A DNA stretch of 64,000 nucleotides, from assembly GCA_003609755.1 (NCBI GenBank), contig AP017991.1:3893001-3957000 (forward strand), in the 5' to 3' direction. Positions 35,983 through 51,563 of the stretch are shown piece by piece. Source of the stretch: Planktothrix agardhii NIES-204 (lineage in GTDB: Bacteria > Cyanobacteriota > Cyanobacteriia > Cyanobacteriales > Microcoleaceae). Both the position numbers and the translations under genes were made by a program. The stretch's first letter is position 1. Each line of letters opens with the position of its first letter. Below the pieces are notes generated by a model. It ran no database searches. It saw only the letters and a program-made list of their open reading frames with translations, and was not told the DNA's origin.

Positions 35983-36134
35983 AAATAAATTCAGAAGTAG
36001 GAAATAAACTCAATTCAAACTAATCATCGCCTTCATCCAACGGTCAAGACGATCTGTTGATGATCATCTTAACAAAAAGTTTTGACAATTACTGTACAAT
36101 CATCTCTTTTTCTTACAGACATTGCAACTTAACT

Positions 36135-36542
36135 ATGACCAATCAGATTGATGTATTTGTCTATGGTACGCTCAAGCCAGGGGAATATAACTATCAACGC
36201 TATTGTCAGGGGCGAGTCCTAGCCCAGCGTCCGGCTTTAGCTGTGGGAACACTCTATGCTCTATCTTTAGGTTATCCAGGGATGGTAGCTGGGGATGGTA
36301 TGGTACAGGGGGTGATTTTATCCTTTGCAGACCCTAATATTTTTTTAGATTTAGATCAATTAGAAGATTACCAACCCCATCGCCCTGCTGAAGAAAACGA
36401 ATATCAGCGACAACAAATTTCTGTATTTGATCTCAACCATCAACCTTTAGGCTTAGTTTGGGTTTATTTGATGGATATTAAAACCGTTGAGTTTTATTCC
36501 GGGGTTTTAATTCCTGATGGGTGTTGGAAAAACCAAGATTAG
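36135..36542 (+). CDS. Gamma-glutamylcyclotransferase (AIG2-like) family protein
   Basis: 135 residues from ATG 36135; in-frame upstream codons from 36057 are not conserved in character. The BtrG/GGCT fold is marked by VFVYGTLKPGEYNYQRYC at the start, where YGTL forms the substrate loop, and by LEDYQPHRPAEENEYQRQQ, with the catalytic-position Glu in the DQLEDY segment. It may cyclise gamma-glutamyl amino acids to 5-oxoproline or have another amide substrate. Ends at a bidirectional terminator. Confidence 0.85.
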   Translation: MTNQIDVFVYGTLKPGEYNYQRYCQGRVLAQRPALAVGTLYALSLGYPGMVAGDGMVQGVILSFADPNIFLDLDQLEDYQPHRPAEENEYQRQQISVFDLNHQPLGLVWVYLMDIKTVEFYSGVLIPDGCWKNQD

Positions 36543-36548
36543 ACCTAA

Positions 36549-36596
36549 AATATAACCCCAAAAAACCTTATATTTTAAAGTCTCTGGGGTTATATT
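36549..36596. terminator. Bidirectional terminator
   Basis: AATATAACCCCA pairs perfectly with TGGGGTTATATT across an A/T-rich loop, with ATTTT beyond and AAAAT before it. It sits between two convergent stops and can serve both. Confidence 0.85.
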
Positions 36597-36599
36597 ATT

Positions 36600-37151
36600 T
36601 TAATTGATGGGTCTTGAAACTGCGGCTTTAGGAATCGGAATAATCGGTTGATCCACACTAATACTAACCGCATTCGGAGTAATAATTGGGATCAGAGGTT
36701 CATTTAAAGCAATTTGTAAGGGTTCCGAATTGTTCAGGGTTTCAGACTGGGCAAACATCGGAAAACGCCCGGAATTGCCTGAAATTGTACTAGAAAAAGT
36801 CATCACTAATAAAGCCGCGATCGCAGTTCCTCCCCAAGTTGCCATCCTCCGGGTTCTCTGATTTAACCGTTGGAAAACGCGGGCGGTTAGTTTTTGTACC
36901 GAAGTACCAGAAGCAGGAACAGGAGCGTTTTGCAAGCGAGAACGCAGTTGTAGTAATTGTAGAAAAGTTGCTTTAATCTTGGGATCAGTATCCAGCCACA
37001 ACTGAACTTGACGGCGCTCTGCAACCGTCGCTTCATTGTCCAGGTAGGCACTGAGTAATTGGATTTTAGGGTCAAGATCCGAGTGTTCCTCAGATAGATA
37101 TCCCCCGATGGTTGAGTAAGTTTGTGGTTCTGGCTCAAGATTATGCTTCAT
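36600..37151 (-). CDS. Probable anti-sigma factor for the upstream ECF sigma
   Basis: 183 residues from ATG 37151 (in-frame codons back to 37205 look non-coding). The N-terminal anti-sigma domain has LLSAYLDNEATVAERRQVQLWLDTDP, the anti-sigma-like helix pattern, without the Cys/His zinc motif. A single transmembrane helix follows (WGGTAIAALLVMTFSS, about 125-142), then a Pro/Asn-rich outer tail. It sits 112 bases downstream of the sigma gene in the same direction, the usual layout, so it probably holds that sigma at the membrane. Confidence 0.82.
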   Translation of the reverse strand: MKHNLEPEPQTYSTIGGYLSEEHSDLDPKIQLLSAYLDNEATVAERRQVQLWLDTDPKIKATFLQLLQLRSRLQNAPVPASGTSVQKLTARVFQRLNQRTRRMATWGGTAIAALLVMTFSSTISGNSGRFPMFAQSETLNNSEPLQIALNEPLIPIITPNAVSISVDQPIIPIPKAAVSRPIN

Positions 37152-37263
37152 CCGAACACCCCCGTTCACCAAATATGAAATCAGACATGAGAAATTGGGG
37201 TTCAACCTATAGAACTATTATATCCCTATTAACAGGAATTTCACCCGCTCGCCTGCACAGATT

Positions 37264-37920
37264 TTAGGGATTGAGATACACTTGCAGATCGGTTTGTAAG
37301 CGTTGACGGGCTCTGGCGATTCTCGATTTTACCGTTCCCAGGGAAACCCCGGTAATTTCGGCGATTTCTTCATAAGCTAATCCTTCAATTTCCCGCAAAA
37401 CAATCGTGGTGCGGAATGCTTCGGGTAAATCGGCGATCGCTTCATGAAGATGACTATAAAATTCACGGGTTGCCATATCTTCATCGGGGCCAGGGCCATC
37501 GGAGGCAATTTCCCAATCCATTTCCCCATCTTCTATATTGCGAGGGGCATCTAAAGATAAGGGGGGTTTGACCCGTTTGCGCTTGCGGAGTTCATCGTAG
37601 AACAAATTAGTAGCAATTCGACTTAACCAACCCCGAAATTTGACGGGTTCCTGTAGACGCTTAATATTACGATAGACCCGAATCCAGATTTCTTGGGCGA
37701 GGTCAGCCCGATCCTGCCAGTCTGGGGCCAGGTGATAGAGAATCTTATCAACATGGGACTGATACCGACGCAGCAGTTCTGTAAAGGCTGCTTTATCTGG
37801 ACAGACTCCCTCTTGACACCGCAGGACTAAATCGGTATTGGGGAGTTGCTCAAGGGGTAGTTGCTCCAGGGGGATAGAGACGCCTGCCTTAGACCAGGAG
37901 ATAGGGATAGATTGACTCAT
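37264..37920 (-). CDS. sigG: ECF RNA polymerase sigma factor (SigG type)
   Basis: 218 residues. Region 2 contains RADLAQEIWIRVYRNIKRLQEP and FRGWLSRIATNLFYDELRKRKR (DNA melting and -10 recognition). Region 4 has LPEAFRTTIVLREIEGLAYEEIAEITGVSLGTVKSRIARAR, the -35-binding HTH. The 45-residue N-terminal extension and the pairing with a membrane anti-sigma fit the cyanobacterial SigG group, which in model strains controls an envelope-stress regulon and is hard to delete (family knowledge). The gene symbol rests on this resemblance. Confidence 0.85.
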   Translation of the reverse strand: MSQSIPISWSKAGVSIPLEQLPLEQLPNTDLVLRCQEGVCPDKAAFTELLRRYQSHVDKILYHLAPDWQDRADLAQEIWIRVYRNIKRLQEPVKFRGWLSRIATNLFYDELRKRKRVKPPLSLDAPRNIEDGEMDWEIASDGPGPDEDMATREFYSHLHEAIADLPEAFRTTIVLREIEGLAYEEIAEITGVSLGTVKSRIARARQRLQTDLQVYLNP

Positions 37921-38221
37921 GGGTGGAACTTGGTTGATGAAAGATTCCGTTAGTTGATGACGCGACCCGGATTGATAGTGTTCCTGGGTTCAAACTGATT
38001 AGTTATGATACCAGGACTAGAGATGAGTTTTTTCACCTAACGGGTGTTTTTCCCTAATGTTAGTGGAAGTTCTGCCCTTTGTCATGAAAAATTTCTCATC
38101 AAATTCGGATCATCGTTGTATGAAAGGATACATTTGCTCGGATTAACTTTCGGGAAAATTGGAAATCAGAAAAAGGACGGGTCGATAAAATTTATCTGTG
38201 GGAATCTGATCTTCATCTTTT
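37921..38221. promoter_or_regulatory. Region upstream of the sigma factor
   Basis: About 300 bases between the sigma gene and the end of the STAND gene. TTGATGA and GTTATGATACC near 37934-38010 may belong to a promoter read leftwards, but I cannot define it. It marks the border between core genes and the accessory island. Confidence 0.3.
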
Positions 38222-39586
38222 TTATATGACCAAATACTGCTTAATTAGAGGTGATAACCAGAAACTATCCTCAATTTTGTCTACTAAACAACGCCGTTGT
38301 AAAGATTGTAAGACATTAACTAATTCTAAGTTTAAATTGGGTTGTTTGTCTATTAATTTTGACAGTTTTAGGGGTTGAGTTTCCTTAGCCAGTATGGACA
38401 ATATTTGTTTTTCTCTATCGGACAGGCGATCCCACTGTTGCCGTAAAATATCTTTAACATCTTCGGGTAATAAGATGATATCATTTTGTAATAAATCAGT
38501 AACATTGACTCCTGATTCTTGAATCAGAGTTGCGACACTTTTTAACCATAAAGGGTTGCCTTGGTAACGGTGAATAAGTATTGAGTAGTCGATTTCTGCT
38601 AACCCGTAATCTCTGAGTATTTCCCCTGCGGCTGCGATATCTAAACCATTGATTTGTAAGGTACGAATAGGATTATTTTGGCTTTCGATTTGAGAGATTT
38701 CTCTGGGTTGTTCCCAACCGATTAAAAGAAAGCAACTTTGATGGGATAATTTTTCTATCTGTTTAAAAAAATGGCGATATTCTTCATATTCTGGTTTATA
38801 CTTTCCTGCCAATTCGCCACTACTGAAAAGATTGTGAACATCATCTAATATGATTAAACAGCGATGCTTTTGTAAATATTTAATTAGGGATAAGGGTTTC
38901 GGTTTAGTTGTAGGGGAGTCTAGTTTTTCTGACTGGGAGAAAAGCTGAATTAGTTCCTGTTGAAATTCGTCTAGGGTGTGGGATAAGTTTATAGTGCGCC
39001 AAATTATGTAATCAAATTGATTTTTTATTTGTTGTACGATTTGTACTGCTAGGGATGTTTTCCCAATACCACTAATACCCGTAATAGCAATCAGGCGACA
39101 TTGTTCTTGTAAAATCCAGGTGGTCAGGGTTTCTAGTTCGGGAGTGCGATCGGAAAAAGCACCCAAATCAGGCATCTCGCTTAAATCTTGATGTGGAGTT
39201 TGAGGTTGTTTTGTGTTAGGTGTTTCTTGATTTGGTGGGGGTGAGTTTGGGATATTTGGTGGGTGTCTGGATTGTCCACAGGTGTTAAAACTACTAATTG
39301 CTACGTTTTCAAAATTAGAGACATTTTCAAATATAAACCTTCCCATTACCGATCTAACATTCGATTTACTTACTTCTTCCCCTAATTCTTCTGAAAGTAT
39401 TTGCCATAATTGTGAACCAACTTGCCTAACATAATTTTCGTTACAGTGAATCTCCTCGGCAATTTTGATATATTTATCACCTTGCATGGTTCCTTGCAGA
39501 ATTGCCTCTTGTAAGTTATCGAGGTGCTGCCCCGTCTTGGCAAACACCATCTCGTCAGCCATTTTCAACACTTCCTTAAGATTCAT
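38222..39586 (-). CDS. STAND (NB-ARC-like) ATPase with VMAP-type N-terminal HTH
   Basis: 454 residues. Residues 1-85 match the HTH domain found at the N-terminus of cyanobacterial vWA-MoxR-associated and NB-ARC proteins (MVFAKTGQHLDNLQEAILQG, YIKIAEEIHCNENYVRQVGSQLWQ). A Pro/Asn linker follows, then the NB-ARC ATPase: P-loop GISGIGKT (170-177), Walker B CLIILDDVHN (243-252), the sensor region FLLIGWEQPRE, and GNPLWLK as the GLPL-equivalent. A winged-helix region closes it. Larger relatives carry WD40 or TPR sensor repeats; here the chain ends after the ARC part, so the sensor is either missing or supplied by a partner. Divergent from the dynamin cluster; a regulatory or defence role is inferred. 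Confidence 0.82.
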   Translation of the reverse strand: MNLKEVLKMADEMVFAKTGQHLDNLQEAILQGTMQGDKYIKIAEEIHCNENYVRQVGSQLWQILSEELGEEVSKSNVRSVMGRFIFENVSNFENVAISSFNTCGQSRHPPNIPNSPPPNQETPNTKQPQTPHQDLSEMPDLGAFSDRTPELETLTTWILQEQCRLIAITGISGIGKTSLAVQIVQQIKNQFDYIIWRTINLSHTLDEFQQELIQLFSQSEKLDSPTTKPKPLSLIKYLQKHRCLIILDDVHNLFSSGELAGKYKPEYEEYRHFFKQIEKLSHQSCFLLIGWEQPREISQIESQNNPIRTLQINGLDIAAAGEILRDYGLAEIDYSILIHRYQGNPLWLKSVATLIQESGVNVTDLLQNDIILLPEDVKDILRQQWDRLSDREKQILSILAKETQPLKLSKLIDKQPNLNLELVNVLQSLQRRCLVDKIEDSFWLSPLIKQYLVI

Positions 39587-39790
39587 GCAGCATCCTGAAT
39601 GTATGGATTTTACATATTATACCTAACATTTCCTAACATTGTATAGCATTTTCTAACATTTTTCGCACAAGGCGACTTGGAGTAGCTAACAAAATGACTA
39701 ACAAAATCGAACATTTTTTAGTTGGCAAAACTTTTATTTATAAGGAAAATGGTAACAGACAGAAGTAAGTTTTAGCCATTGGAGAGGAGT
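39587..39790. promoter_or_regulatory. Divergent promoter region with direct repeats
   Basis: Shared by the STAND gene (left) and the dynamin cluster (right). CCTAACATT occurs at 39622 and 39632 and TCTAACATT at 39652. GCTAACAAAAT and ACTAACAAAAT follow at about 39685 and 39696. The repeats sit where the HTH of the STAND protein could bind as an autoregulator (inference). Confidence 0.5.
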
Positions 39791-39940
39791 ATGGATGGAA
39801 TTTTAAAGTTTTTGGGAGTTATGGTAGTTGGCGCAATAGTTTTGGCTCTCTTGGCAGGATTAGGGCCATTTGGGGCAATTATTGCATTCCTTATAGTAGG
39901 TGCCGCCGTTGTGGGAAAAGGCAAAAATGACAAAAAATGA
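39791..39940 (+). CDS. 49-residue small membrane protein, first gene of the dynamin cluster
   Basis: Preceded by a very good ribosome-binding site (GGAGAGGAGT). After MDGILKF the chain is hydrophobic and Gly/Ala-rich (LGVMVVGAIVLALLAGLG, PFGAIIAFLIVGAAVVG), forming two short transmembrane helices or a hairpin, and ends in the basic tail KGKNDKK. No family is recognised. The GTPase gene begins 49 bases downstream, so co-expression is likely. A small membrane effector or anchor for the dynamins is inferred from the context. Confidence 0.65.
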   Translation: MDGILKFLGVMVVGAIVLALLAGLGPFGAIIAFLIVGAAVVGKGKNDKK

Positions 39941-39989
39941 CAAATTCTGGTGATATTGATAGAGGGAATTTTGGAAAAGGAGGAAAGAC

Positions 39990-41495
39990 TTGACTGATTT
40001 TACAAGCCTTTCAGACATTAAAGATTCATTAATCAGGGCCTTAGAGACTCTTCCTGAAGAGACGATTCTTCTGGCTGACGAGGCAGGTTCGACCTTTGCA
40101 AAAGCTAATCTTGTCGAAAATGTCCAGCAAGACATTGAGCGATTAGAAAGTTTTTGGGAGTTTCTTCACGATTATCGCAATACAAAAGTTATTGCATTAG
40201 TTGGAATGGTTAATGCAGGCAAATCTGCTCTTGGAAATCACCTTCTAAATCTTGGAGAATCTGGTGTTTTTCAAGAAGCATCTATTCGTGAAACCTCACA
40301 AGCTCAGGAAGCCAAAATTGATGAAGAGACAGTGATTATTGACTTGCCTGGTTTAGGTTCTGTTCTTTGCGAAGAAGATGACACAATAGTTAAAGGCATC
40401 ATCCGTCGAGCCAATCTTTTACTACTTGTATTTGATGTTAGCTATCCGATTCCGAGACATTTTTACGAGTTTCTGAAAAGCAACGAGGTACTCAAAAGCA
40501 AAGCATTACAACGGATTGTTATTGTCATCAACAAAATAGACTGCTTATCTGATTTACCTGAAAAATTTAAACAGAAGCAGATTCAGAGCTATATCAACTT
40601 TCTGAGTCATGGTAATGAAAAGATGGAATTTGAAGGAATTGCTAGACTTTTCGACTATGAGATTCCGATTGTCTCATTCTCAGTAGCCGAGGCAAGAAGA
40701 TATTCAAATAGCGATCGAGAGCGCCAATTAAGGCAAGTGATTTACGAATCTCTTGAAGTTAACTCTAACAGTGCTATCAATCGTGCTGAAGTTGAATTGG
40801 TTGAAGTTGCAAGTAAATATTCAATTGTAATTGCCAGTTACATCGCACTACGAAAACGTGAAGAAAAACTGGGCGAACAAATGACATATAAAATTCAAAC
40901 AGTAATCGGACAAATAAATGAATCCATTAATAGAGAAGTGGATACCTTATCTAACCGTATTGGAAAAATTAGAGGATCTTGTCTTCAAGAGATGCGGAAT
41001 TATCAAACTACGGGTGATGAGCGTTTTTGGCAAGGTGATAATTTTAGATGGAAGAAGAATAAGTCTATGCAATGCCGAGATAGATATCAGGATGAAATAG
41101 TCTCTGAATTTCAGATATTTGTTAGTAACTTGCGAAGTAATATTTTAATTGTTGCAAGAAATTTAGTTGGAAGCTTTCAAATTAGCGAACCTAGTAGTGA
41201 CTCGATTATATCGAATTTGAAAAATTCTATATACGAAATTTGGGATGCTTTTGATGATTATTGGTTTTTGGATAAAGATAGAGATACATTTGACCGAAGC
41301 ATTGAACAATCCGATCAATATTTTAATAATGCTGCAAATGAAATTGATAACTGGCTTACTCAATTCCAAAAAAATATTTCGGAAAATATCTTTACAAATT
41401 TGACAAAAATTAACATCGTTGAAGAATATTATTTTTACAAAAATTATGCGGATTCCCTAGAATCTTTTTATGAGGTTTTAACCTCTATTGATTGA
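39990..41495 (+). CDS. Dynamin-like/Era-like large GTPase 1
   Basis: 501 residues from a TTG start supported by GGAGGAAAG. The GTPase domain is complete: G1 GMVNAGKS (72-79), G2 Thr102 in RETSQ, G3 DLPG (118-121), G4 NKID (181-184). The rest is long helical sequence without a clear transmembrane paddle, with segments such as EEKLGEQMTYKIQTVIGQIN that could form a dynamin-like stalk. Base composition and codon use do not stand out from the neighbours. GTPase 2 follows 53 bases downstream. Paired bacterial dynamins usually work as heteromers, one providing the membrane insertion (family knowledge); here gene 2 has the hydrophobic part. Confidence 0.8.
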   Translation: MTDFTSLSDIKDSLIRALETLPEETILLADEAGSTFAKANLVENVQQDIERLESFWEFLHDYRNTKVIALVGMVNAGKSALGNHLLNLGESGVFQEASIRETSQAQEAKIDEETVIIDLPGLGSVLCEEDDTIVKGIIRRANLLLLVFDVSYPIPRHFYEFLKSNEVLKSKALQRIVIVINKIDCLSDLPEKFKQKQIQSYINFLSHGNEKMEFEGIARLFDYEIPIVSFSVAEARRYSNSDRERQLRQVIYESLEVNSNSAINRAEVELVEVASKYSIVIASYIALRKREEKLGEQMTYKIQTVIGQINESINREVDTLSNRIGKIRGSCLQEMRNYQTTGDERFWQGDNFRWKKNKSMQCRDRYQDEIVSEFQIFVSNLRSNILIVARNLVGSFQISEPSSDSIISNLKNSIYEIWDAFDDYWFLDKDRDTFDRSIEQSDQYFNNAANEIDNWLTQFQKNISENIFTNLTKINIVEEYYFYKNYADSLESFYEVLTSID

Positions 41496-41548
41496 ATCAG
41501 GTCTATTTTTTTAAAAATGTACATATTCGAGTAACACAGGAGAAAAAA

Positions 41549-43483
41549 ATGACACAACAACCAGCTTACAAAACCTTCCGCGTTAGCATCAATGCAAATA
41601 CTCTGCTTGATGATTTTGCTCCGGTTTTAATCGAGGATATCTCCAAAAAATTTCAACCCATCTTCCAGTTGAAAGAAAGTTATTGCGAGCAAATGTTACA
41701 GCATTGCAACAAGCTTCAGACCTTCTCTGAGTTTACTGCCCTTGCTACGAGACTTCGTGAGTACATTCGAGAAGTGAAAGATGATTTCAAAGATTGTGAA
41801 GAGAATGTCAACTATTTCACATTGGTATTCATGGGAGCCGTAAGTGCTGGTAAAACATCAATGATCTGCGATTTTCTTAATGTTAATCCCGATCAACTTA
41901 ATCAATGGCTTCGCTCCAGCAGTAACTTTCAACCGACAGAAGACGCTGTAATTATTGCAGGCGAAGTTGCAACCACAAATGTATATGAATTCTTGGTTGA
42001 ATCTAGCCACATTCGACTGGTTGACATTCCAGGGACAGGGGGTGTTGTTCACGACAACACTACAATTGCTCCTTTTATTAACAAGGCTGATTGCCTGATT
42101 TTTCTATCCAATGCTCAGTCCGATCTCACCCGTGATGATTATGACTTTGTTGTGCGGCATATAGTTGGACTAAAAGATGCTAGTGAGTTAACTCCGGAAA
42201 CTGCTTCTAACAAAAAAGCCCTGATTGTTGTTAACAAGTGGAATACAGTAATTCAGAATATCCCAAAAATAGATAATCAGCAAAAGGAATGGGAGAAAAA
42301 AAAGAAGTGGATTCTTTGGGGAGGTAAAACTTTCGGTGGATTAAGTAACCTATTCAAGCGAACCCTAACAATTGTTCCGGCTACTACAACCCAAAGGATT
42401 TTTGATGAAGAAACAGGAAGCTATGAACGTTACGGAAAAATTGAGCTTACCGAAGTGATAGATGCTCTGAAAAGTATCCTTATGGAAGAGGGCATTCAAA
42501 TCAAGTTAGATCGTCCTAAAATAATTCTCAAACGCTCTCTAACTAATACAACAGAGGTTCTGAAAAATGAACGCACCAAGCGATCTGTTGATGAATTGGT
42601 TGCTGATTTAGAGAAATTAGGAATCAAAGTTTCTGTCAATTCTAACTCGATAATGACACTTTTAGGCTCTCGATTAGAAAGCCTAAAAAATCGTCTAAAA
42701 CGCGACTTGTATTCTCAAATCAAAGATGGACTTGACGGATGGAAGCCTAGTGTCTCTGTCAAGGATCGAATTAAGGGTTTGTGGCCGAAAGAGTGGTGGG
42801 GATCTGAAAAGTTCGGTGCTAAAGCTGTTCAGGAAGAATTGAGAGATCGTTGGAAAACAGAGGTCGAAGATTTATTGCGTGAAAGTATTAAGCCTAAAGA
42901 TATTAAGCGCACAATCAATGATGAAGCTGATTCGATCAGCAAGCTGCTAGAAGCAACCTTTAAATCACAATTGGCTGAACTTCAGCAGCAAGCGGTAAGG
43001 GAACGGCTGTCAAAGGGGGTATCTCTTGAATCGTTTGATGGCACTAATCTCAATTTGACTGGTTCTGGTCAAGCACTTGAGACTGCAATTAATAGAGCAG
43101 TATCTGAGGTTCAATACAGCATTGTGGACGATATTATTGGCATCTTTACTTTTGATGCAATTATAGCTTCCTTACTAGGTATTATTCTTAATCCTTTAGG
43201 AAGTGCTGTCTTCTTTGCTATTCGACGCTGGATGAGTGGTCAAGCAGAAGAAAAAAAGGCTAAACAAGAGATTGAGGAACAAATTTTGCGTATAGCTGAT
43301 GAGGCATCTGCTGAGTTGCAAGAACAAGTTGCTGACAAACTTCGGGATTCTGTTCAAAAGTCGGTCGATAGTATTGCTCAAGTAATTCGACGTGAAGGTG
43401 AAAGTTTAAGTAAGCTGCTTCAAGCCCTTGATGGTGCGATAACAACCGTAACTGAAATTCGGGAGCGTTTAGAAGATATCTAG
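41549..43483 (+). CDS. Dynamin-like GTPase 2 with membrane-insertion segment
   Basis: 644 residues from ATG 41549, which has the leader AGGAGAAAAAA; the in-frame TTG 57 bases upstream lacks one. G1 GAVSAGKT (96-103), Thr142/Thr143 as possible G2, G3 DIPG (159-162). G4 reads NKWN (229-232), with Asn where the guanine-specifying Asp normally is. A long helical stalk follows, and near residues 525-560 a hydrophobic segment (IIASLLGIILNPLGSAVFFA) could insert in a membrane like the paddle of bacterial dynamins. A C-terminal coiled coil returns to the GTPase side (LREQ/LRDSVQKSVDSI). It probably remodels or seals membrane together with GTPase 1; a phage-defence role is inference. Confidence 0.82.
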   Translation: MTQQPAYKTFRVSINANTLLDDFAPVLIEDISKKFQPIFQLKESYCEQMLQHCNKLQTFSEFTALATRLREYIREVKDDFKDCEENVNYFTLVFMGAVSAGKTSMICDFLNVNPDQLNQWLRSSSNFQPTEDAVIIAGEVATTNVYEFLVESSHIRLVDIPGTGGVVHDNTTIAPFINKADCLIFLSNAQSDLTRDDYDFVVRHIVGLKDASELTPETASNKKALIVVNKWNTVIQNIPKIDNQQKEWEKKKKWILWGGKTFGGLSNLFKRTLTIVPATTTQRIFDEETGSYERYGKIELTEVIDALKSILMEEGIQIKLDRPKIILKRSLTNTTEVLKNERTKRSVDELVADLEKLGIKVSVNSNSIMTLLGSRLESLKNRLKRDLYSQIKDGLDGWKPSVSVKDRIKGLWPKEWWGSEKFGAKAVQEELRDRWKTEVEDLLRESIKPKDIKRTINDEADSISKLLEATFKSQLAELQQQAVRERLSKGVSLESFDGTNLNLTGSGQALETAINRAVSEVQYSIVDDIIGIFTFDAIIASLLGIILNPLGSAVFFAIRRWMSGQAEEKKAKQEIEEQILRIADEASAELQEQVADKLRDSVQKSVDSIAQVIRREGESLSKLLQALDGAITTVTEIRERLEDI

Positions 43484-43692
43484 TTCGATCGCAACTCTCC
43501 CGTAAGTTAGCTTTCCAGACTCAACCTAACATTCATCGGCGTTTAATGTAACTTTGGTGAAGAGCAATCGCACCCCTACCTAAAAAAAGCGATCGCCTTT
43601 CTTATTCTTTTCGCTCGGAGCGATCGCCTTTTCTTGTTTCTGAGAGTGCGATCGCCCCTCCTCACCAAAAGAAAGCGCGATCGCTCTTTTTA
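43484..43692. other. HIP1-rich spacer
   Basis: About 200 bases with at least five GCGATCGC or near-HIP1 sites, including a unit bounded by two of them at 43648-43684. No gene. Confidence 0.6.
43648..43684. repeat. HIP1-bounded repeat, copy 1
   Basis: GCGATCGC, then CCCTCC-x-CAAAAGAAAGC, then GCGATCGC. The same short unit recurs at 45601 and 47139. The spacer has five extra bases here. Confidence 0.65.
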
Positions 43693-44061
43693 TCAACTTC
43701 TAAAAACTTCCACTTTTTCCGACATATCCAATCCTTCTTTAACTAAATTATCAGGAGTAGGATTCCGATTTATAAATTCATCTAGGAGTTCAAAAAACTT
43801 ATCAAGTGCTTTACTTTCATCCTCAGAATAAAAAAGAATTATATTAGCCCAAGATTGGCTAGTCTGCACATTGAATCTTTTTCTTATCCACTCAGGAAAC
43901 TGCATAAAATCGCGATCTTGTTTCGTTGGCTGTTCTCCTAACTCATATTTAGCAACGCTGTAACCCGACAAAAAAGCCTGAAGACAAATAATAGAGTGTC
44001 GTCCCAAGTACATTGAAGGAGCCTTCTTAATTTTCTCAATCAGCCTATATAAATCGTGCAT
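43693..44061 (-). CDS. Small protein, candidate immunity partner
   Basis: 122 residues, soluble. It starts MHDLYRLIEKIKKAPSMYLG and continues HSIICLQAFLSGYSVAKYEL. The I-x-x-(R/A)-P-x-M-Y-(L/I)-G block is a pattern I associate with small proteins found next to polymorphic toxins. The C-terminus is acidic (FFELLDEF, EGLDMSEKVEVF). It follows the papain-fold protein by 42 bases in the same direction, which is the toxin-then-immunity order. The assignment rests on context. Confidence 0.6.
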   Translation of the reverse strand: MHDLYRLIEKIKKAPSMYLGRHSIICLQAFLSGYSVAKYELGEQPTKQDRDFMQFPEWIRKRFNVQTSQSWANIILFYSEDESKALDKFFELLDEFINRNPTPDNLVKEGLDMSEKVEVFRS

Positions 44062-44103
44062 TTTTCACCTCAATATTTTTCAAATAATTGTAAGCTGTTC
44101 GGC

Positions 44104-44487
44104 TCAAAATTCCTCTTCTATAATCTGAAAACTTCCCATCCCTAGTTCCAGAGTAGGAGAGGTTAAATTTTGCAGCCATTCCTGCCGATTCACGCCACTA
44201 TGGTCTATGTTATCAAAAATAATTTCCTCTCTATCAATTGTAATTGATATTCCTTCATGGTATCCAGTGGTAGAAATTTGCTGCTGTCGTCGTAAATCAT
44301 AAATAACTGCCCAAGGTAAGTCTTGCCTACCTAAATCTAGCTTTATCTTCTTACCATTTAGGTTTCTAGCTATTAAAAACTCTTTGATAGCCTGACTGCA
44401 ATCAATACATTGAAAAACTCCATAACGACTGGCAATTTTAGCGATTTGTTGACGAATATCATCTAAATTACTCGGATCTAAACTCAA
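44104..44487 (-). CDS. Papain-fold toxin-like protein
   Basis: 127 residues. FQCIDCSQAIKEFLIARN supplies the nucleophile-type Cys (27 or 30) at the head of a helix, YHEGISITI the His (77), and EIIFDNID an Asp/Asn after a strand: the order and spacing of a papain-like Cys-His-Asp site, as in the 'papain fold toxin' families at the ends of polymorphic toxins. Here the domain stands alone, with no secretion or delivery domain. It may be an orphan toxin tip, or a domesticated hydrolase or deamidase. Confidence 0.6.
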   Translation of the reverse strand: MSLDPSNLDDIRQQIAKIASRYGVFQCIDCSQAIKEFLIARNLNGKKIKLDLGRQDLPWAVIYDLRRQQQISTTGYHEGISITIDREEIIFDNIDHSGVNRQEWLQNLTSPTLELGMGSFQIIEEEF

Positions 44488-44547
44488 ACTGCAAAACTCT
44501 CCTCCTATCTTTATCTAAAAGTAAAGTATAGCATCACCCCTTGCTTC

Positions 44548-44612
44548 AGAAACCGGGTTTCTCAGAGAACTAAAGCATCCCAGCCAAGATTTTATTCAGA
44601 AACCCGGTTTCT
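44548..44612. repeat. Paired palindrome element (AGAAACCGGGTTTCT)
   Basis: Two 15-base palindromes 50 bases apart around a spacer with AAAGCATCCCAGCCAAGAT. Followed by CGCGATCGCC. The copy at 45493 is homologous along its whole length, spacer included. Confidence 0.8.
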
Positions 44613-44663
44613 CACTCCACGCGATCGCCCATAAAATTATTTAACCTCCTCTCATCGGTTAGA

Positions 44664-45107
44664 TTACGATCGCTCCGTCTCTGGCATTTCTCCATCAACA
44701 ACTACCAACCCCACACCGCAGCGAATTGCCGCTTCCGCCAAGTGGCTATCCAGTGTTGCGATCGGCAATTCCAATCTTAATGCTAACTCTAAATAAGCTG
44801 CATCATAAGCAGCTAAACCTTCTTGTCTTCCTAGTACCAGAGTTGACGACAGTGCGTTGCTATCCGTAGCTTCATCAACCTGAATTAAAAGTGATTGTAA
44901 CAAAGTAATAGCCATCTCAGATTGCTCAGTCGTCATGCGATTGCGTCGCTCGGCAACCAGGAGAGTATTAGCAACTTCTAGCGACCAAATTCCTGGTACA
45001 AACGCTTCGCAATCCGGCATCATCGCGAGTATAGCATTAGCATAATCGTTATCTTCATCCACTAAGCACCAACTGATTGCTACAGAACAATCCAATATAA
45101 ACTGCAT
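44664..45107 (-). CDS. vapC: PIN-domain toxin (VapC-like ribonuclease)
   Basis: 147 residues. The four acidic PIN residues are in place: Asp6 (FILDCSVAISW), Glu44 (WSLEVANTL), Asp102 (AYDAAYLELAL) and Asp120 (IATLDSHLA). It is a metal-dependent RNase that cleaves tRNA or rRNA when released from its antitoxin (family knowledge). Its ATG shares one base with the stop of the upstream antitoxin gene (TAATG), so translation is coupled. The pair lies within the accessory island. Confidence 0.88.
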   Translation of the reverse strand: MQFILDCSVAISWCLVDEDNDYANAILAMMPDCEAFVPGIWSLEVANTLLVAERRNRMTTEQSEMAITLLQSLLIQVDEATDSNALSSTLVLGRQEGLAAYDAAYLELALRLELPIATLDSHLAEAAIRCGVGLVVVDGEMPETERS

Positions 45108-45379
45108 TAGAACCTGCGCCCTTCTTCTATCATTTCGCGGATTGAGCTTTTATCCAAGGCAATTTCTTGCCGTAGTTGTCGCATTCTACCAATTGCTGTT
45201 TGAATTGATTTTTTAGTAGTCAGTTGTCCCCAAGCGTTATACTTCGGTTTAACTTCCTCCGATGGTAGAGGCTGCACAACTACCACCACTTCCACAGAAG
45301 TATCTTTAAACTCATCGGGCATTTGGAGAAGCAATATGCCATCGGTTCCAATATGCGATCGCAGTTTCATTGTTTCCAT
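45107..45379 (-). CDS. Antitoxin of the PIN-domain toxin
   Basis: 90 residues. MKLRSHIGTDGILLLQMPDEFKDTSVEVVVVVQP looks like a small beta-rich DNA-binding head. The C-terminal helix (RQEIALDKSSIREMIEEGRRF) is typical of the toxin-wrapping tail of VapB-like antitoxins that end with an EGRRF box. It is upstream of vapC with a one-base overlap. No close named family is claimed. Confidence 0.82.
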   Translation of the reverse strand: METMKLRSHIGTDGILLLQMPDEFKDTSVEVVVVVQPLPSEEVKPKYNAWGQLTTKKSIQTAIGRMRQLRQEIALDKSSIREMIEEGRRF

Positions 45380-45492
45380 GTCAGACTCCAGAAACTTCGA
45401 GCAATTCTAGTTTACCTCAAAGCTGTTCACCTTTACCAGTATCTTGACCGATAGTATAGGTGCTATTGAATGGGGAAGGCGATCGCAACTTA

Positions 45493-45557
45493 AGAAACCG
45501 GGTTTCTCAGATAACTCAAGCATCGCCGCCGAGATTTTGTTCAGAGACCCGGTTTCT
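45493..45557. repeat. Paired palindrome element (AGAAACCGGGTTTCT)
   Basis: AGAAACCGGGTTTCT and AGAGACCCGGTTTCT, 50 bases apart, with the spacer CAAGCATCGCCGCCGAGAT shared with the element at 44548. Confidence 0.8.
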
Positions 45558-45600
45558 CACCCCCACGCGATCGCCACACCATCGCCCACCAAAACTCATC

Positions 45601-45632
45601 GCGATCGCCCCTCCAAAAGAAAGCGCGATCGC
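45601..45632. repeat. HIP1-bounded repeat, copy 2
   Basis: GCGATCGC-CCCTCCAAAAGAAAGC-GCGATCGC. Identical to the copy at 47139 apart from one base in the last octamer. Confidence 0.7.
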
Positions 45633-45688
45633 CGTTAAAACACAATTTTAAAGGTTAAAATAAATATATATACTCTTAAACAAGCGAT

Positions 45689-45949
45689 ATGCCTCTCAGT
45701 GAACTTTTACCCACAGTTAATCAATTATCTCATCAAGATAAACTGCGACTCATTCACTTTCTCCTACTTGCAGTTGCCAAGGAACAAGGATGCAGCCTAG
45801 AACCTGCTGAAGATACTAATTCAGAAAATATACTTTTGAATCAACTAGCATCAACGAGTGCAGTTGTATGGTCTCCACAGGCAGATCAGGAATCAATTCA
45901 AGCATTATCAGAACTTCTAGCTACCGCTCAACAATCAGCCCATGCTTAA
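45689..45949 (+). CDS. Small partner of retropepsin-like protein 1
   Basis: 86 residues, acidic and helical: MPLSELLPTVNQLSHQDKLRLIHFLLL, then an Asp/Glu/Ser-rich linker and a terminal ALSELLATAQQSAHA helix. It resembles short antitoxin-like or adaptor proteins that begin with a similar 'L-x-H-x-(D/E)-K-(L/F)-x-L' helix in cyanobacteria. It overlaps the protease gene by eight bases, so the two are translated together. Confidence 0.7.
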   Translation: MPLSELLPTVNQLSHQDKLRLIHFLLLAVAKEQGCSLEPAEDTNSENILLNQLASTSAVVWSPQADQESIQALSELLATAQQSAHA

Positions 45950-46370
45950 TAGTCAGCGATTTCCATTTATAGAGCGAATTGATACCCTTGGGCGATCAAG
46001 TATCATGCCATATTTGCCAATCACTCTCTCCAACGGCAGCAACTCCGTAGAAGTGATGGCATTATTAGATACTGGTGCAAGTGTTAATGTTCTCCCATAT
46101 CAGATTGGTCTACAACTAGAGGCAATATGGGAACAGCAAACCGTTCCTATTCAATTGAGTGGGAATTTGGCCCATAGTGAGGCGCGGGGATTGGTGCTTT
46201 CGGGTACAGTTGCTCAGTTTTCGTCGCTCTTGCTGGCATTCGCTTGGACTCGTTCGACAGATGCACCTGTAATCCTTGGACACCTCAACTTTTTCTCGGA
46301 GTTTAATGTCTGTTTTTTTCGTCACGAATTAGCTTTTGAGCTTTACCCAAGGGAAAAAGGAATTGTTTAA
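45942..46370 (+). CDS. Retropepsin-like aspartic protease 1
   Basis: 142 residues. The single catalytic motif LLDTGASVNVLP (Asp43) is followed by the flap region, and VILGHLNFFSEF is the typical closing I-(L/I)-G-x-x-x-(F/L) block. Such proteins would dimerise to form one active site, as retroviral proteases do (family knowledge). No reverse transcriptase or gag-like gene is present. The protein is cytosolic by sequence; its target is unknown. It is co-translated with the small protein upstream, so the pair looks like a functional unit. Confidence 0.8.
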   Translation: MLNSQRFPFIERIDTLGRSSIMPYLPITLSNGSNSVEVMALLDTGASVNVLPYQIGLQLEAIWEQQTVPIQLSGNLAHSEARGLVLSGTVAQFSSLLLAFAWTRSTDAPVILGHLNFFSEFNVCFFRHELAFELYPREKGIV

Positions 46371-47249: not shown

Positions 47250-50200
47250 TTAGATGTCTAAATCCGTCAAATTTAAGCGGGGGGCGTGGGTTTCGATGAA
47301 CTCCCGACGGGGGGCAACGCGATCGCCCATTAATATGGTAAAAATCCGATCTGCCTCGGCGGCATCTTCCACTTCCACCCGTTTAATCATTCGAGTTTCT
47401 GGGTTCATAGTGGTTGTCCAAAGTTGTTCGGGCATCATTTCCCCTAACCCTTTAAACCGTTGAATATTGTAGTTAGCATTGGCGGGTAAACTTCTCAAAT
47501 GCTCCTGTAATTCCTGTTCATTGTAACAGTATTGATGGTTCCGTCCCCGTTCCACTTTGTACAGGGGAGGACAGGCAATATAAATATAGCCTTGATCGAC
47601 TAATTCCCGTTGATAACGATAGAAAAAGGTGAGTAATAAAGTCCGAATGTGGGCGCCATCAACGTCCGCGTCGGTGTTATGACAGCAGAGTCCTCCAGTA
47701 CCACAAACAAAGTTTTCATCCCCATCAACGGAGAAGTCATAAACATACTCTCCAACTAATTCAATCTCCTCTGCCTTGATAACTTTTAATCCCATTAAAT
47801 CTTCACTAATGGGTAAATAATCCATCGGTTTTTGAGTCGGAAGTTGTAAATAGGTTTTGAGTTTTTCTGCTCCTAAATGACGTTGCCAAATTAAACGACA
47901 ACTTTCGAGTTGTTGTTTCCCACAAAGGGTAAGAGTATGGTAGGGATAACGGGTTTGAATTGGGGCTGTGTGATTCAATTGAGGTTGATGTTCACTGGTA
48001 CTGGCAATTAATCCCAATTGTCCGAATAAATAGAGTAATCCATTCTTAATTGAATTGGAGTTAGTTGTCCAAGAAATATTCGCCTCACTGGTTGTACCAT
48101 CCCCTAAGAAATACCCCTCTAAAAAGGCAAGTTGTAAAGGTTCAGTCACCGAGAAAACCAGATCGGGAATTTGTTTTTCATGGGATTTTTTTCCTAATCC
48201 CCATGCTTGTAACAGTCGGGCAGCGGCTACACTATGAAAGTAGAGTTTAATGCCCTGACTTTCGGGATCATTATAGCGGCGTGGGGTTTCCCCAAATACC
48301 TCTTGAATAGCTGTAATTAACTCAGGAATAAATCGCTCATCTTTTGTGCCTAAATTCAGACTGACTTGATGTTTTGATAGGGTTCCTTCCGCTACATACC
48401 AACCCAAAAACCACATTAATTCTGAAGTAATAGGTAAATAGCGATCGAATGCTTTATTCTGGTGCGCTTGAGGAACAATTTTTAGGTTATCCCCTAATTG
48501 AATTAACTCGCTTGGTGTGAAATATTCAAAGGGTTTGTAATTACTAACTTCTCGCCAACGGGAGTTTTTACTGCTGTCATCTTGAGTCAGGAGTTGATCA
48601 ATTTTAGAGGGAAGGGTTTGGTAAACAATATTTTCGTTACCTCCAATTGTCTCTAAATAATCCAAGAAATTAGACAAAATTGGGCGATTAATTCCCCGTT
48701 CCCAGTGACTAATAGTAATCGGTTGTTTGACTCCAATGGCAGTGGCTAATTGTTTTTGAGTCATGCCTAATGCTTGACGTTGGGCAATTAATTTTTGCCA
48801 TCCTTGAGCATCTAATTCAACCCGGGTTTCACTGAATAATTCCGGTTTTTCAACCTTAGCTAAAATCCGGCGACTGGCAATTTTACGAACATCTTCTCCT
48901 TGTAAATATAAGGATTGAGTCACACCCGCTTCATAGAAAATTCGGAGTAAATCAATCCGGGTTTGGGGTTCAGTTGAACGGGGTAAACGACGACTGGCAA
49001 CTAACCAATCTCCGGGTTTAATTTCATTGCCTTTTTTGAGTTTAACTTCCCCGTTTTCATAAACAAAAACACTATGGGAAGATGTGACTTTAATCTGACG
49101 ATTATAGCGAGTCGTCAGTTGATACATGGGTTCTTCATGACCGTGACGAATTACGGCTTTAATCGGACGAAAACGGGTGGCATGGGTTACGGGATCAAAG
49201 GCAACCACTTGATAGCGTTCTGGGGTACGTTTCCCCTCGATACACTCATCAATAAACTTACCAATTTCTACAAATTCCGTTTTCCCGGTATCTTCCATTA
49301 CTAACGTTGGTTCATCACCCGCAACGCTCATAATTATGACTTTATGATAACGCAACCCGGTAGCATCAAATTCTTCTCCCTTAATTCCTAATCCTAATGC
49401 TGTAATTAAGGATTGAATTTCATTATTTTTGTAGATTTTGGCATCATCCGTTTTCTCAATATTCAGGATTTTTCCGCGTAAAGGAAGAATGGCTTGGGTA
49501 CGGCGATCGCGTCCTTGTTTGGCGCTATTATGCACAAATATACCCGCCGATAATGCGAAGTTATGGCTATGGGGAACTTCAATATCATAAACATCATGCC
49601 GTTCTTCTAACCATTCGATAGAAATTACCCGATGGTTATAGTTACGAATAGCAGTTCGGGTGGCAACTTCATCCCCTTCAAAATAGCGATCGCAAAAGGT
49701 TTTAAAGGTCTGATCTTTTTGCGGTTTAAGAGAGTTTGCTGACGGGTTATATATCTGATAGAGTGATGCTAGGGTTCGGGCATAATCGCTTTGATATTGA
49801 GATTCTAAGCGGTCTTGATCTTCCCGTTGTTTTAATTGATAGTTATTGGCTAATACATGGGTATCAATCCATTGATCAGAACCGGGATTCCAAACCTTTT
49901 GATTTCCCTTTAATTCCCCATTATTTTCCGCAGGGGAAAGTTGATAATGAAACGGCATTAAGGAATCTTCTGGGGTTAATTCTGCTGCTGCTTTATAGGT
50001 GCGATCGCGCAACATAAACGGATGATCGGGAGTACAAATCAGGGTTTCTCCATTATCTAAAGTTAATTGCACGACTTGGGCATTTTGTTTCGTAAGTCGA
50101 GCATGAATTACTCGCTCAATCCCTATATTTCCACTATTATTAATAGTATAGCAAAAATGCTCTTTCCCTTGATTTTGTTCTTCAACAATTTCTTGAAATG

Positions 50201-51563
50201 TTTTCTCTGAACCATCGGCTAACCGAATCAAAGTAGAACCCAAAAAACAGCCTCCGGCACTATCGCCTTCGACTAAGAAAATCTCTGATTCATGGGGATC
50301 TCGGGTACTACAGTCCGCTAATTTACCGGGTAAAGGTGAGGATTCTAAGACCGATTTTCGACGAACTAAATCCCGGGCTCGACGAGCGGCTTCTGCGGCT
50401 TTAAAGGCTTGGATGGCTTTCTCAATTATCGCATCGGCAATTCCTGGATTAAATTCTAAATACTCGGTTAAAGCTTCCCCCACCAAGGAGTCAACAATTC
50501 CCCGAACCTCTGGATTTCCTAATCGGGTTTTGGTTTGTCCTTCAAATTCAGGATCGGGAACTTTCGCGGAAATAACGGCGGTCAGACCTTCCCTAATATT
50601 TTCCCCGCCTAAATTTGCTTCTCCTTCTTTAAGTTTATTCCGTTTACGGGCGATCGCATTTAAAGTCCGAGTCAAAACGGTTTTTAACCCTTCCAAATGG
50701 GTTCCACCATCGATAGTTCTAATATTATTAGCAAAGCCTAAAACCGTATCACTATAGGCATCGGTACACCACTGCAAAGCGACTTCTATTTGAACATTAC
50801 TCCGTTCTCCACAAGTATAAATAATATCTTCATGGAGGGGTTGTTTATCATTGTTCATGTAGGCGATATACTCCCGAATTCCGCCTTCATAACAGTAGGT
50901 TTCTATCCTGGGATTTTCACGATTTAAGAGTTCTAAACGACTATCGGTGAGGGTGATTTTGACTCCCGCATTCAAATAGGCGAGTTCCCGTAAACGGGAA
51001 GCAATGGTATCACAATCAAACTCAATTCCGGTGGTAAAAATTGACGTATCAGGTAAAAAGGAAACGGAGGTTCCGGTGCGGGCTTCTTTGATCGGTTTTG
51101 AGGTGAGTTCCGTGGCGGGAGTCCCCCGTTCAAAGCGTTGGGAATATTCTTTTCTATCCCGAAAAACCGTAACTTCTAACCATTCTGATAAGGCGTTAAC
51201 AACGGAAACCCCGACCCCATGTAAACCCCCAGAAACCTTATAACCGCCACCGCCAAATTTACCTCCGGCGTGCAGAACTGTTAACACCGTTTCTAAAGCG
51301 GACTTTCCGGTTTTAGAATGGGTATCGACGGGGATACCGCGACCATCATCGGTGACGGTGACGGAACCATTGGCGTTGAAGTCGATTTCGATGTGGGTGC
51401 AATAGCCAGCCAGCGCTTCATCGATCGCATTGTCTACAACCTCGTATACTAAATGGTGGAGTCCTCTTGGCCCTGTGGAACCAATGTACATTCCAGGGCG
51501 TTTGCGAACGGCTTCCAAACCTTCAAGGACTTGAATTTGGTCGGCGCTGTAATTGCTGGTCAT
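47250..51563 (-). CDS. gyrB: DNA gyrase subunit B precursor with two inteins
   Basis: 1437 residues as translated; removal of two inteins (241 and 551 residues) leaves 645, the normal size of cyanobacterial GyrB. The GHKL ATPase is intact ([35 protein letters not shown]). The Toprim domain would be EGDSAGG|SAKQGRD and [21 protein letters not shown] after splicing. So both inteins interrupt the two most conserved Toprim motifs, the acidic metal-binding sites. The mature enzyme introduces negative supercoils with GyrA. Splicing must occur for function, and both junctions keep the needed residues. Divergent from miaA. The start ATG at 51563 is favoured by alignment to the usual N-terminus. Confidence 0.95.
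47676..49328 (-). mobile_element. Intein 2 of GyrB, LAGLIDADG type with embedded HTH
   Basis: Residues 746-1296 (551 aa) of the precursor. Ser at +1 of the intein ([11 protein letters not shown]), the block-B-like VTSSHSVFV, and the C-terminal [12 protein letters not shown] before Thr+1 of [10 protein letters not shown]. The endonuclease has both dodecapeptide blocks: [14 protein letters not shown] (1050-1063) and [15 protein letters not shown] (1145-1159). Between the splicing block and the endonuclease lies a helix-turn-helix of XRE type (about 921-972: [19 protein letters not shown], then [11 protein letters not shown]). The insert is in the Toprim DxD motif. The large size and intact acidic residues suggest an active homing endonuclease. 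Confidence 0.9.
49527..50249 (-). mobile_element. Intein 1 of GyrB, endonuclease apparently lost
   Basis: Residues 439-679 (241 aa). Cys+1 ([13 protein letters not shown]), block [14 protein letters not shown], block F-like [17 protein letters not shown] and the end GIFVHN before Ser+1 of SAKQGRD. The insertion site GDSAGG is the same one used by the known GyrB intein of Synechocystis. The middle 100 residues are polar and hold [22 protein letters not shown] but no LAGLIDADG or HNH catalytic motif, so the endonuclease seems lost or reduced. All splicing residues are present. Confidence 0.9.

Follow-up and report, generated by a model that had tools for sequence, protein, structure and literature searches.

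A STAND ATPase gene with exchangeable divergent neighbors, 10-bp promoter repeats and an Eleos-like dynamin pair in Planktothrix agardhii

A STAND gene faces a small membrane protein gene and two GTPase genes

We analyzed a window of 64,000 nucleotides from the genome of Planktothrix agardhii NIES-204 (contig AP017991.1, positions 3,893,001 to 3,957,000; source genome 5.08 Mb in 5 contigs), in which the gene for a STAND ATPase faces three co-oriented genes, encoding a small membrane protein and two dynamin-like GTPases. The four genes, in window coordinates, are:

38222..39586, minus strand: STAND gene, 454 aa; head (approximately residues 1-100), linker, NB-ARC ATPase and C-terminal winged-helix-like part
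39791..39940, plus strand: small membrane protein gene, 49 aa, hydrophobic and glycine-rich; ATG preceded by GGAGAGGAG
39990..41495, plus strand: GTPase 1, LeoA-like, 501 aa; TTG start preceded by AAAGGAGG
41549..43483, plus strand: GTPase 2, LeoBC-like, 644 aa; ATG preceded by CAGGAG; hydrophobic stretch at approximately residues 525-561

These four open reading frames (ORFs) lie where the original prediction had placed them. The prediction described the STAND protein as lacking sensor repeats, in agreement with Pfam, in which NB-ARC is matched (E 1.1e-15) and repeat families give no hit up to E 1; the VMAP-type helix-turn-helix that was also assigned to it has no match in the Pfam copy used. 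For the GTPases, Pfam returns MMR_HSR1 in GTPase 1 (E 3.3e-10) and Dynamin_N in GTPase 2 (E 1.6e-4, under the Pfam cut-off). Rfam gave no match within positions 36000-46000, tRNA genes are absent from the window, and neither the MoxR nor the vWA family was found among the three flanking genes and five further window genes scanned, a subset of the window ORFs.

Different genes occupy the place opposite the same STAND

In three relatives, positions 36000-39586 of the window align at 87-96% as far as the STAND start, where the alignment ends. Each relative has a STAND gene in this same position, next to the same sigma-factor gene, and the genes facing it are different each time. They encode an N6-methylase with a specificity-like subunit (just under the Pfam cut-off) in a relative of the same species, a radical SAM protein, whose gene follows two tiny ORFs and has two more genes with it, in the second relative, and a 115-aa protein without a Pfam match in the third. 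Paralogues of the STAND face glycine-rich hydrophobic proteins (judged by eye), VOMI, CHAP-SH3, DUF3825 and FG-GAP proteins, and at one of them a patatin is the second gene of the facing set. Pfam was run on 20 proteins from these loci, a subset of the payload genes, and nine of them had no match at E 0.01. Because the same STAND faces quite different genes in relatives, the GTPase pair looks like an interchangeable payload and not like part of a fixed system.

The exchange extends into the STAND gene. Identity to the same-species allele is 57% over residues 1-95, 76% over 96-140, 97% over 141-340 and 98% over 341-454. For the remaining two relatives the figures are 76% and 58% in the head, 95% and 94% in the ATPase, and 91% and 90% in the C-terminus, so that the ATPase half is 90-98% and the head 57-76% identical across the three same-place relatives, in which the 250 bp upstream of the STAND are only 52-58% identical. 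Synonymous divergence from the same-species allele (not computable for codons 1-50) is 1.0 over codons 51-100, 0.22 over codons 101-140 and 0.00-0.11 beyond; the main step falls at about codon 50 for the second relative and at about codon 200 for the third. Such a step in synonymous divergence points to recombination rather than to selection on the head alone. Near-identical payloads also stand beside unlike STANDs: the dynamin payloads of the window and of Tychonema are 93-97% identical next to STANDs of 68% identity, and the methylase pair is 94-98% identical between genera next to STANDs of 66% identity.

The STAND family has a divergent layout

The source genome has 13 matches to the family at E 1e-10, and each of the 11 genomes searched had matches. 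NB-ARC was found in all 27 family members scanned, and the family profile has its best matches among NB-ARC structures of plant NLRs, together with a weak similarity to a winged-helix regulator at positions 387-459. At residues 21-62, sub-threshold Pfam matches to sigma-70 region 4 occur in eight of the nine family N-termini scanned. Head-family matches were also found in two other families of genomes (37/40 and 27/39 genomes).

With 20 further STAND loci read with their flanks, a divergent neighbor was found for 23 of 24 STANDs and for 65 of 181 control genes from the same loci, when one rule was applied to ORFs of at least 100 aa; with a limit of 70 aa the counts are 21/24 and 70/184. The Fisher p of 9e-9 for the 100-aa counts is too optimistic, since the 24 loci include close relatives (L051/L052, L064/L065 and L061/L062) and the controls were drawn from the same loci.

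Short head-only proteins of approximately 160-175 aa (L111, L117, L136, L084 and others) belong to the same family and have strong 10-bp repeats. Such proteins might stand in for the STANDs or compete with them.

Repeats of 10-bp period lie between the divergent genes

The intergenic region of the window contains the following elements:

39616..39621, minus strand: putative STAND -10 box TATAAT (consensus scan, weak)
39645-39640, minus strand: weak STAND -35 TATACA (consensus scan, weak)
39622..39659, plus strand letters: proximal repeats, four 8-bp copies, 39622 CCTAACAT, 39632 CCTAACAT, 39642 TATAGCAT, 39652 TCTAACAT
39685..39714: distal repeat-like words CTAACA, CTAACA and GAACAT, spaced 12 and 10, just before the putative payload -35
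39722..39750, plus strand: putative payload promoter TTGGCA-17-GAAAAT (consensus scan, weak)

The promoter calls are weak because two promoter-like sites were found where 0.9 are expected in shuffles. The proximal copies are spaced exactly 10 bp apart, and their array ends beside the STAND TATAAT. The window has a single occurrence of the repeat doublet, and 100 shuffles have none; in the whole genome the exact doublet occurs once, and two matches with two mismatches equal the two of a reversed-pattern control, which is no excess. The position of the repeats relative to the putative STAND -10 box suggests possible autorepression, and the distal words suggest that the payload may be activated.

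Across the family the repeat word varies and the period is constant. At a lag of 10 bp the family upstream regions give a z of 18.5 (n=41) and 13.1 (24 non-redundant), against 3.6 for 172 control upstream regions; the 41 count one Tychonema locus twice at an offset (L008 and L031, the latter among the 24), and a locus with a truncated STAND (L033) was excluded from the repeat tests. An independent set was taken from two other families as the best 60 loci of longer match lists, of which 58 were usable. Sorted by similarity of the head, its closest loci (n=28) have a z of 7.7 (22 non-redundant), with 20 neighbors divergent, seven in the same direction and one locus without a neighbor, and the middle loci (n=15) a z of 2.1, with nine divergent, four in the same direction and two without. 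The period-10 signal in the independent set holds for the closest heads only.

Distances between repeats follow distances between heads (Mantel r 0.74, n=30; 0.48 for 16 non-redundant loci), also with the ATPase distance fixed (partial Mantel 0.54 and 0.42, respectively), whereas the ATPase distance adds nothing once the head is fixed (0.07 and -0.01). For these comparisons L008 and L031 were removed, leaving 39 loci, and nine loci without a clear triple repeat were omitted. Words from a locus's own operator are enriched overall in the payload-side half of the intergenic region (permutation p 0.0095), and the window locus ranks 1 of 16.

The GTPases form an obligate pair

Eleos is a defense system composed of the dynamin-like proteins LeoA and LeoBC. 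The proposed LeoA/LeoBC type of the GTPase pair agrees with PADLOC, in which the LeoA model matches 9/9 homologues of GTPase 1 and the LeoBC model 9/9 homologues of GTPase 2, with partial model coverage; the matches of the window proteins are likewise partial (E 1.3e-11 and 3e-18). The P-loop, DxPG and NK motifs are kept in all nine aligned homologues of each GTPase, the last motif of GTPase 2 being NKW and not NKxD. The membrane segment predicted in GTPase 2 corresponds to a hydrophobic stretch (approximately residues 525-561) that is conserved across the aligned homologues. The pair is a remote relative of LeoA/LeoBC.

A two-sequence profile search found GTPase 1 in 8/388 genomes of the order, spanning six families. 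GTPase 2 lies directly 3' of GTPase 1 in all eight and also on a Methylomagnum plasmid, and the LeoA-like gene leads in all of these nine complete loci; the pairing is obligate. Searches for GTPase 2 found it in two of 291 genomes of the class, the second being a broken fragment, and in two of 61 genomes of the family, the second being Tychonema sp. LEGE 06208 (Microcoleaceae according to NCBI). This rarity refers to sampled genome sets, and a contig-wide scan with two weak patterns confirmed only Tychonema. On the Methylomagnum plasmid (NZ_AP019788.1) the pair recurs in the same order with 33-37% identity, and is the sole match of each GTPase among 72,556 plasmid records. Downstream of it lie a TIR gene and a gene for a 428-aa protein whose match to the STAND profile is weak (E 2.6e-5). 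The plasmid also carries a multiubiquitin-ThiF-DUF6527 gene run. Four of the nine complete loci, in three genera, have a divergent STAND; these are the loci of the window, of Tychonema and of two genomes from a single further genus. In the latter two the pair is preceded by proteins (170 and 283 aa) whose N-termini look hydrophobic by eye.

The 49-aa protein was found in 2/60 genomes of the family, exactly the two that carry the GTPase pair. In Tychonema it is 82-86% identical, with an in-frame indel of two codons, and dN/dS over the 49 codons is 0.35 (a rough value), by which the ORF looks coding. The predicted small gene was not found at the seven other complete pair loci. The protein might, at a guess, anchor the pair to the membrane as a separate component, or form a small pore. 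All four genes were found together in two genomes only, and by the refutation test set out with the original prediction the four-part combination mostly fails; a strict four-gene system is rejected on this distribution, with the 49-aa ORF at 2/9 complete pair loci. The Tychonema STAND (L008 10396-11771) is frameshifted near codon 57, which may reflect decay or a draft error, and its payload genes are intact.

A phage origin of GTPase 2 was considered and rejected, with no match in 50,697 phage records; scans of viral contigs, with GTPase 2 alone and with alignments of the STAND, GTPase 1 and GTPase 2, confirmed no relative. In a broken copy of the pair (L006, genome G247), GTPase 2 is fragmented across different reading frames and contains an in-frame stop, and transposase-like ORFs follow. 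At another locus (L053 14833-19130, minus strand) a second dynamin-like pair of 681 and 693 aa (Dynamin_N E 8.6e-27 and 2.1e-30) sits a few kb from the LeoA/LeoBC-like pair.

Other genes of the window

The gene at 44104-44487 (minus strand) encodes a protein with a Papain-fold toxin 2 domain (Tox-PL-2, E 5.5e-29). It adjoins a 122-aa gene without a clear family, and the 122-aa region is located elsewhere in the same-species relative. A GyrB gene at 47250-51563 (minus strand, 1437 aa) contains intein splicing and LAGLIDADG domains.

Comparison with known systems

AfsR and MalT are the model STAND transcription activators. In the cited passages on AfsR, the DNA-binding domain engages direct repeats that overlap the -35 element, lie approximately one helical turn apart and adjoin the -10 element, and ATP binding relieves inhibition (PMC10936776). 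The window family resembles AfsR and MalT in having a nucleoside triphosphatase (NTPase) switch, and AfsR in having direct repeats near a promoter -10 element (unclear at L051/L052). It differs in that the head is N-terminal and at best similar to sigma-70 region 4, that there is no tetratricopeptide repeat sensor, and that the paralogues are many, each with repeats of its own and an exchangeable payload on the divergent side. BldC is described, in the passages available, as binding direct repeats head to tail.

The pair shares with Eleos and with E. coli leoABC the adjacent dynamin-like GTPases that match the LeoA and LeoBC models. The LeoA-like gene comes first here, whereas E. coli leoBC is placed upstream of leoA in the sections consulted (PMC4159319), and because of this reversed order we call the pair Eleos-like and not a member of Eleos. 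Unlike LeoC, neither window GTPase has an N-terminal anchor (by eye), and unlike in Eleos, a STAND and separate membrane proteins are present at some pair loci. Membrane hetero-oligomers are suggested in the same sections on leoABC, and excerpts on Campylobacter Cj-DLP1/2 describe a membrane-tethering hetero-oligomer (PMC6104087). By these descriptions Cj-DLP1/2 are likewise two unlike dynamin-like proteins from adjacent genes, but no switch gene is reported for them in those excerpts. By analogy, the dynamin payload may act as membrane hetero-oligomers. DynA delays lysis after phage infection, according to portions of PMC8844932.

VMAP/iSTAND ternary systems, which are NTPase-controlled, have variable effectors and are frequent in multicellular cyanobacteria according to passages of PMC7159879, share with the window family the NTPase control of variable effectors. 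In those passages they are centered on MoxR-vWA pairs and on effector release at the protein level, unlike here, and the word 'dynamin' does not occur in the main text of that paper.

A proposed local transcription switch with exchangeable payloads

We hypothesize, with a probability of roughly 0.55, that the STAND protein acts as a local transcription switch with AfsR/MalT-like logic, controlling exchangeable, possibly defensive payloads. The N-terminal head would recognize the 10-bp-spaced repeats at the -10 box of its own gene, as well as the words resembling them close to the payload promoter. With ADP bound, the activity of the two promoters would stay low. An inducer, for which an infection or membrane signal would fit, would open the NB-ARC module, and ATP binding with oligomerization along the repeats would turn the payload on. 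Here the payload would be the small membrane protein and the LeoA/LeoBC-like dynamin pair, which may form assemblies at the membrane that seal, tether or deform it. Recombination within the STAND gene, at approximately codons 50-200 depending on the relative, would swap the head together with promoter and payload and leave the ATPase half in place.

Several observations weigh against this reading. The STAND of the window family was not found in the stretches fetched for five of the nine complete pair loci, one of which has a divergent 167-aa protein without a match to the head profile and one a transposase-like gene upstream (by eye). Two dynamin loci of another family (L051 and L052) have a divergent STAND and no clear repeat. 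The Pfam scan of N-termini found no helix-turn-helix or sigma-70 region 4 match in the head of the window STAND, and single-sequence structure models were too poor to use (mean predicted local distance difference test, pLDDT, 42 for the STAND and 52 for the N-terminus). In the independent set the loci with the most distant heads (n=15) show no repeats (z -0.1), and with seven neighbors divergent and eight in the same direction they show no excess of divergent layout either. Unsorted (n=58), the set has 32 divergent, 23 in the same direction and three without, and a z of 1.6 for forms longer than 300 aa compared with 8.1 for short head-only forms (12 non-redundant). Nearby non-operator DNA follows the head almost as the operator stretch does in a k-mer control (r 0.28-0.29 and 0.32, respectively), and the co-variation of head and repeats may therefore reflect mere proximity and is no proof of recognition. 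Own-operator words rank first in only 5/16 loci and 12th or lower in 5/16.

An NLR-like sensor that acts directly on the payload proteins, as scaffold or activator, with the shared promoter only balancing both sides, would account for the similarity of the NB-ARC domain to plant NLRs; STAND proteins have been described, in the passages available, as sensors that assemble into signaling platforms, and the payload proteins could be held inactive. Unrelated payloads opposite one conserved ATPase half are a better fit to control at the DNA level, however, and the part swapped with the payload is the promoter-side end, which has the family-wide repeats; we consider direct action unlikely. Less likely still, the association of STAND and payload could be functionless, in a recombination hot spot where exchanges merely end at the STAND start. 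Head and intergenic DNA are indeed linked and swapped together, and the toxin-antitoxin-type genes of the island also move, but hitch-hiking would not be expected to give a divergent layout so much more frequent than in controls, nor repeats whose sequence changes while their period is constant.

What the payloads do is a separate matter from how they are controlled. They might serve competition, allelopathy or envelope stress and not phage defense, with the dynamin pair in membrane repair or vesicle release. Some are radical SAM, VOMI, CHAP-SH3 or FG-GAP proteins, and knock-outs of LeoA and LeoB lower vesicle release in E. coli, as stated in sections of PMC4159319. Set against this are the payloads that are a patatin or an N6-methylase with a specificity-like subunit, the presence of TIR and multiubiquitin/ThiF genes on the plasmid that carries a relative of the pair, and the protection against phage by DynA in the parts consulted of PMC8844932. 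We regard a role outside defense as possible, though not as the better guess; a defense role of the locus is plausible.

Implications

More broadly, and only tentatively, we speculate that the local transcription switch belongs to a cyanobacterial family of NLR-like switches with their own repeat operators, in which head, operator and payload are swapped as one block and the sensing ATPase half is kept. Such a family may provide a recombinable arsenal of inducible payloads, several to many per genome, with Eleos-like dynamin pairs as one option. No published description of this arrangement was found in the open-access literature searched, including passages of PMC7159879, PMC8195603 and PMC10907252, a coverage with most subscription papers outside it. 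The novelty would lie in the joining of STAND transcription control to exchangeable conflict-type payloads. If the proposal is correct, the genes facing each such STAND gene would be the place to search for candidate effectors, with the repeats offering a direct, testable handle on the wiring of a bacterial NLR-like protein to transcription. It would also explain the patchiness of the dynamin pair in the order, and would present a natural example in which a constant switch has its head, operator and output exchanged.

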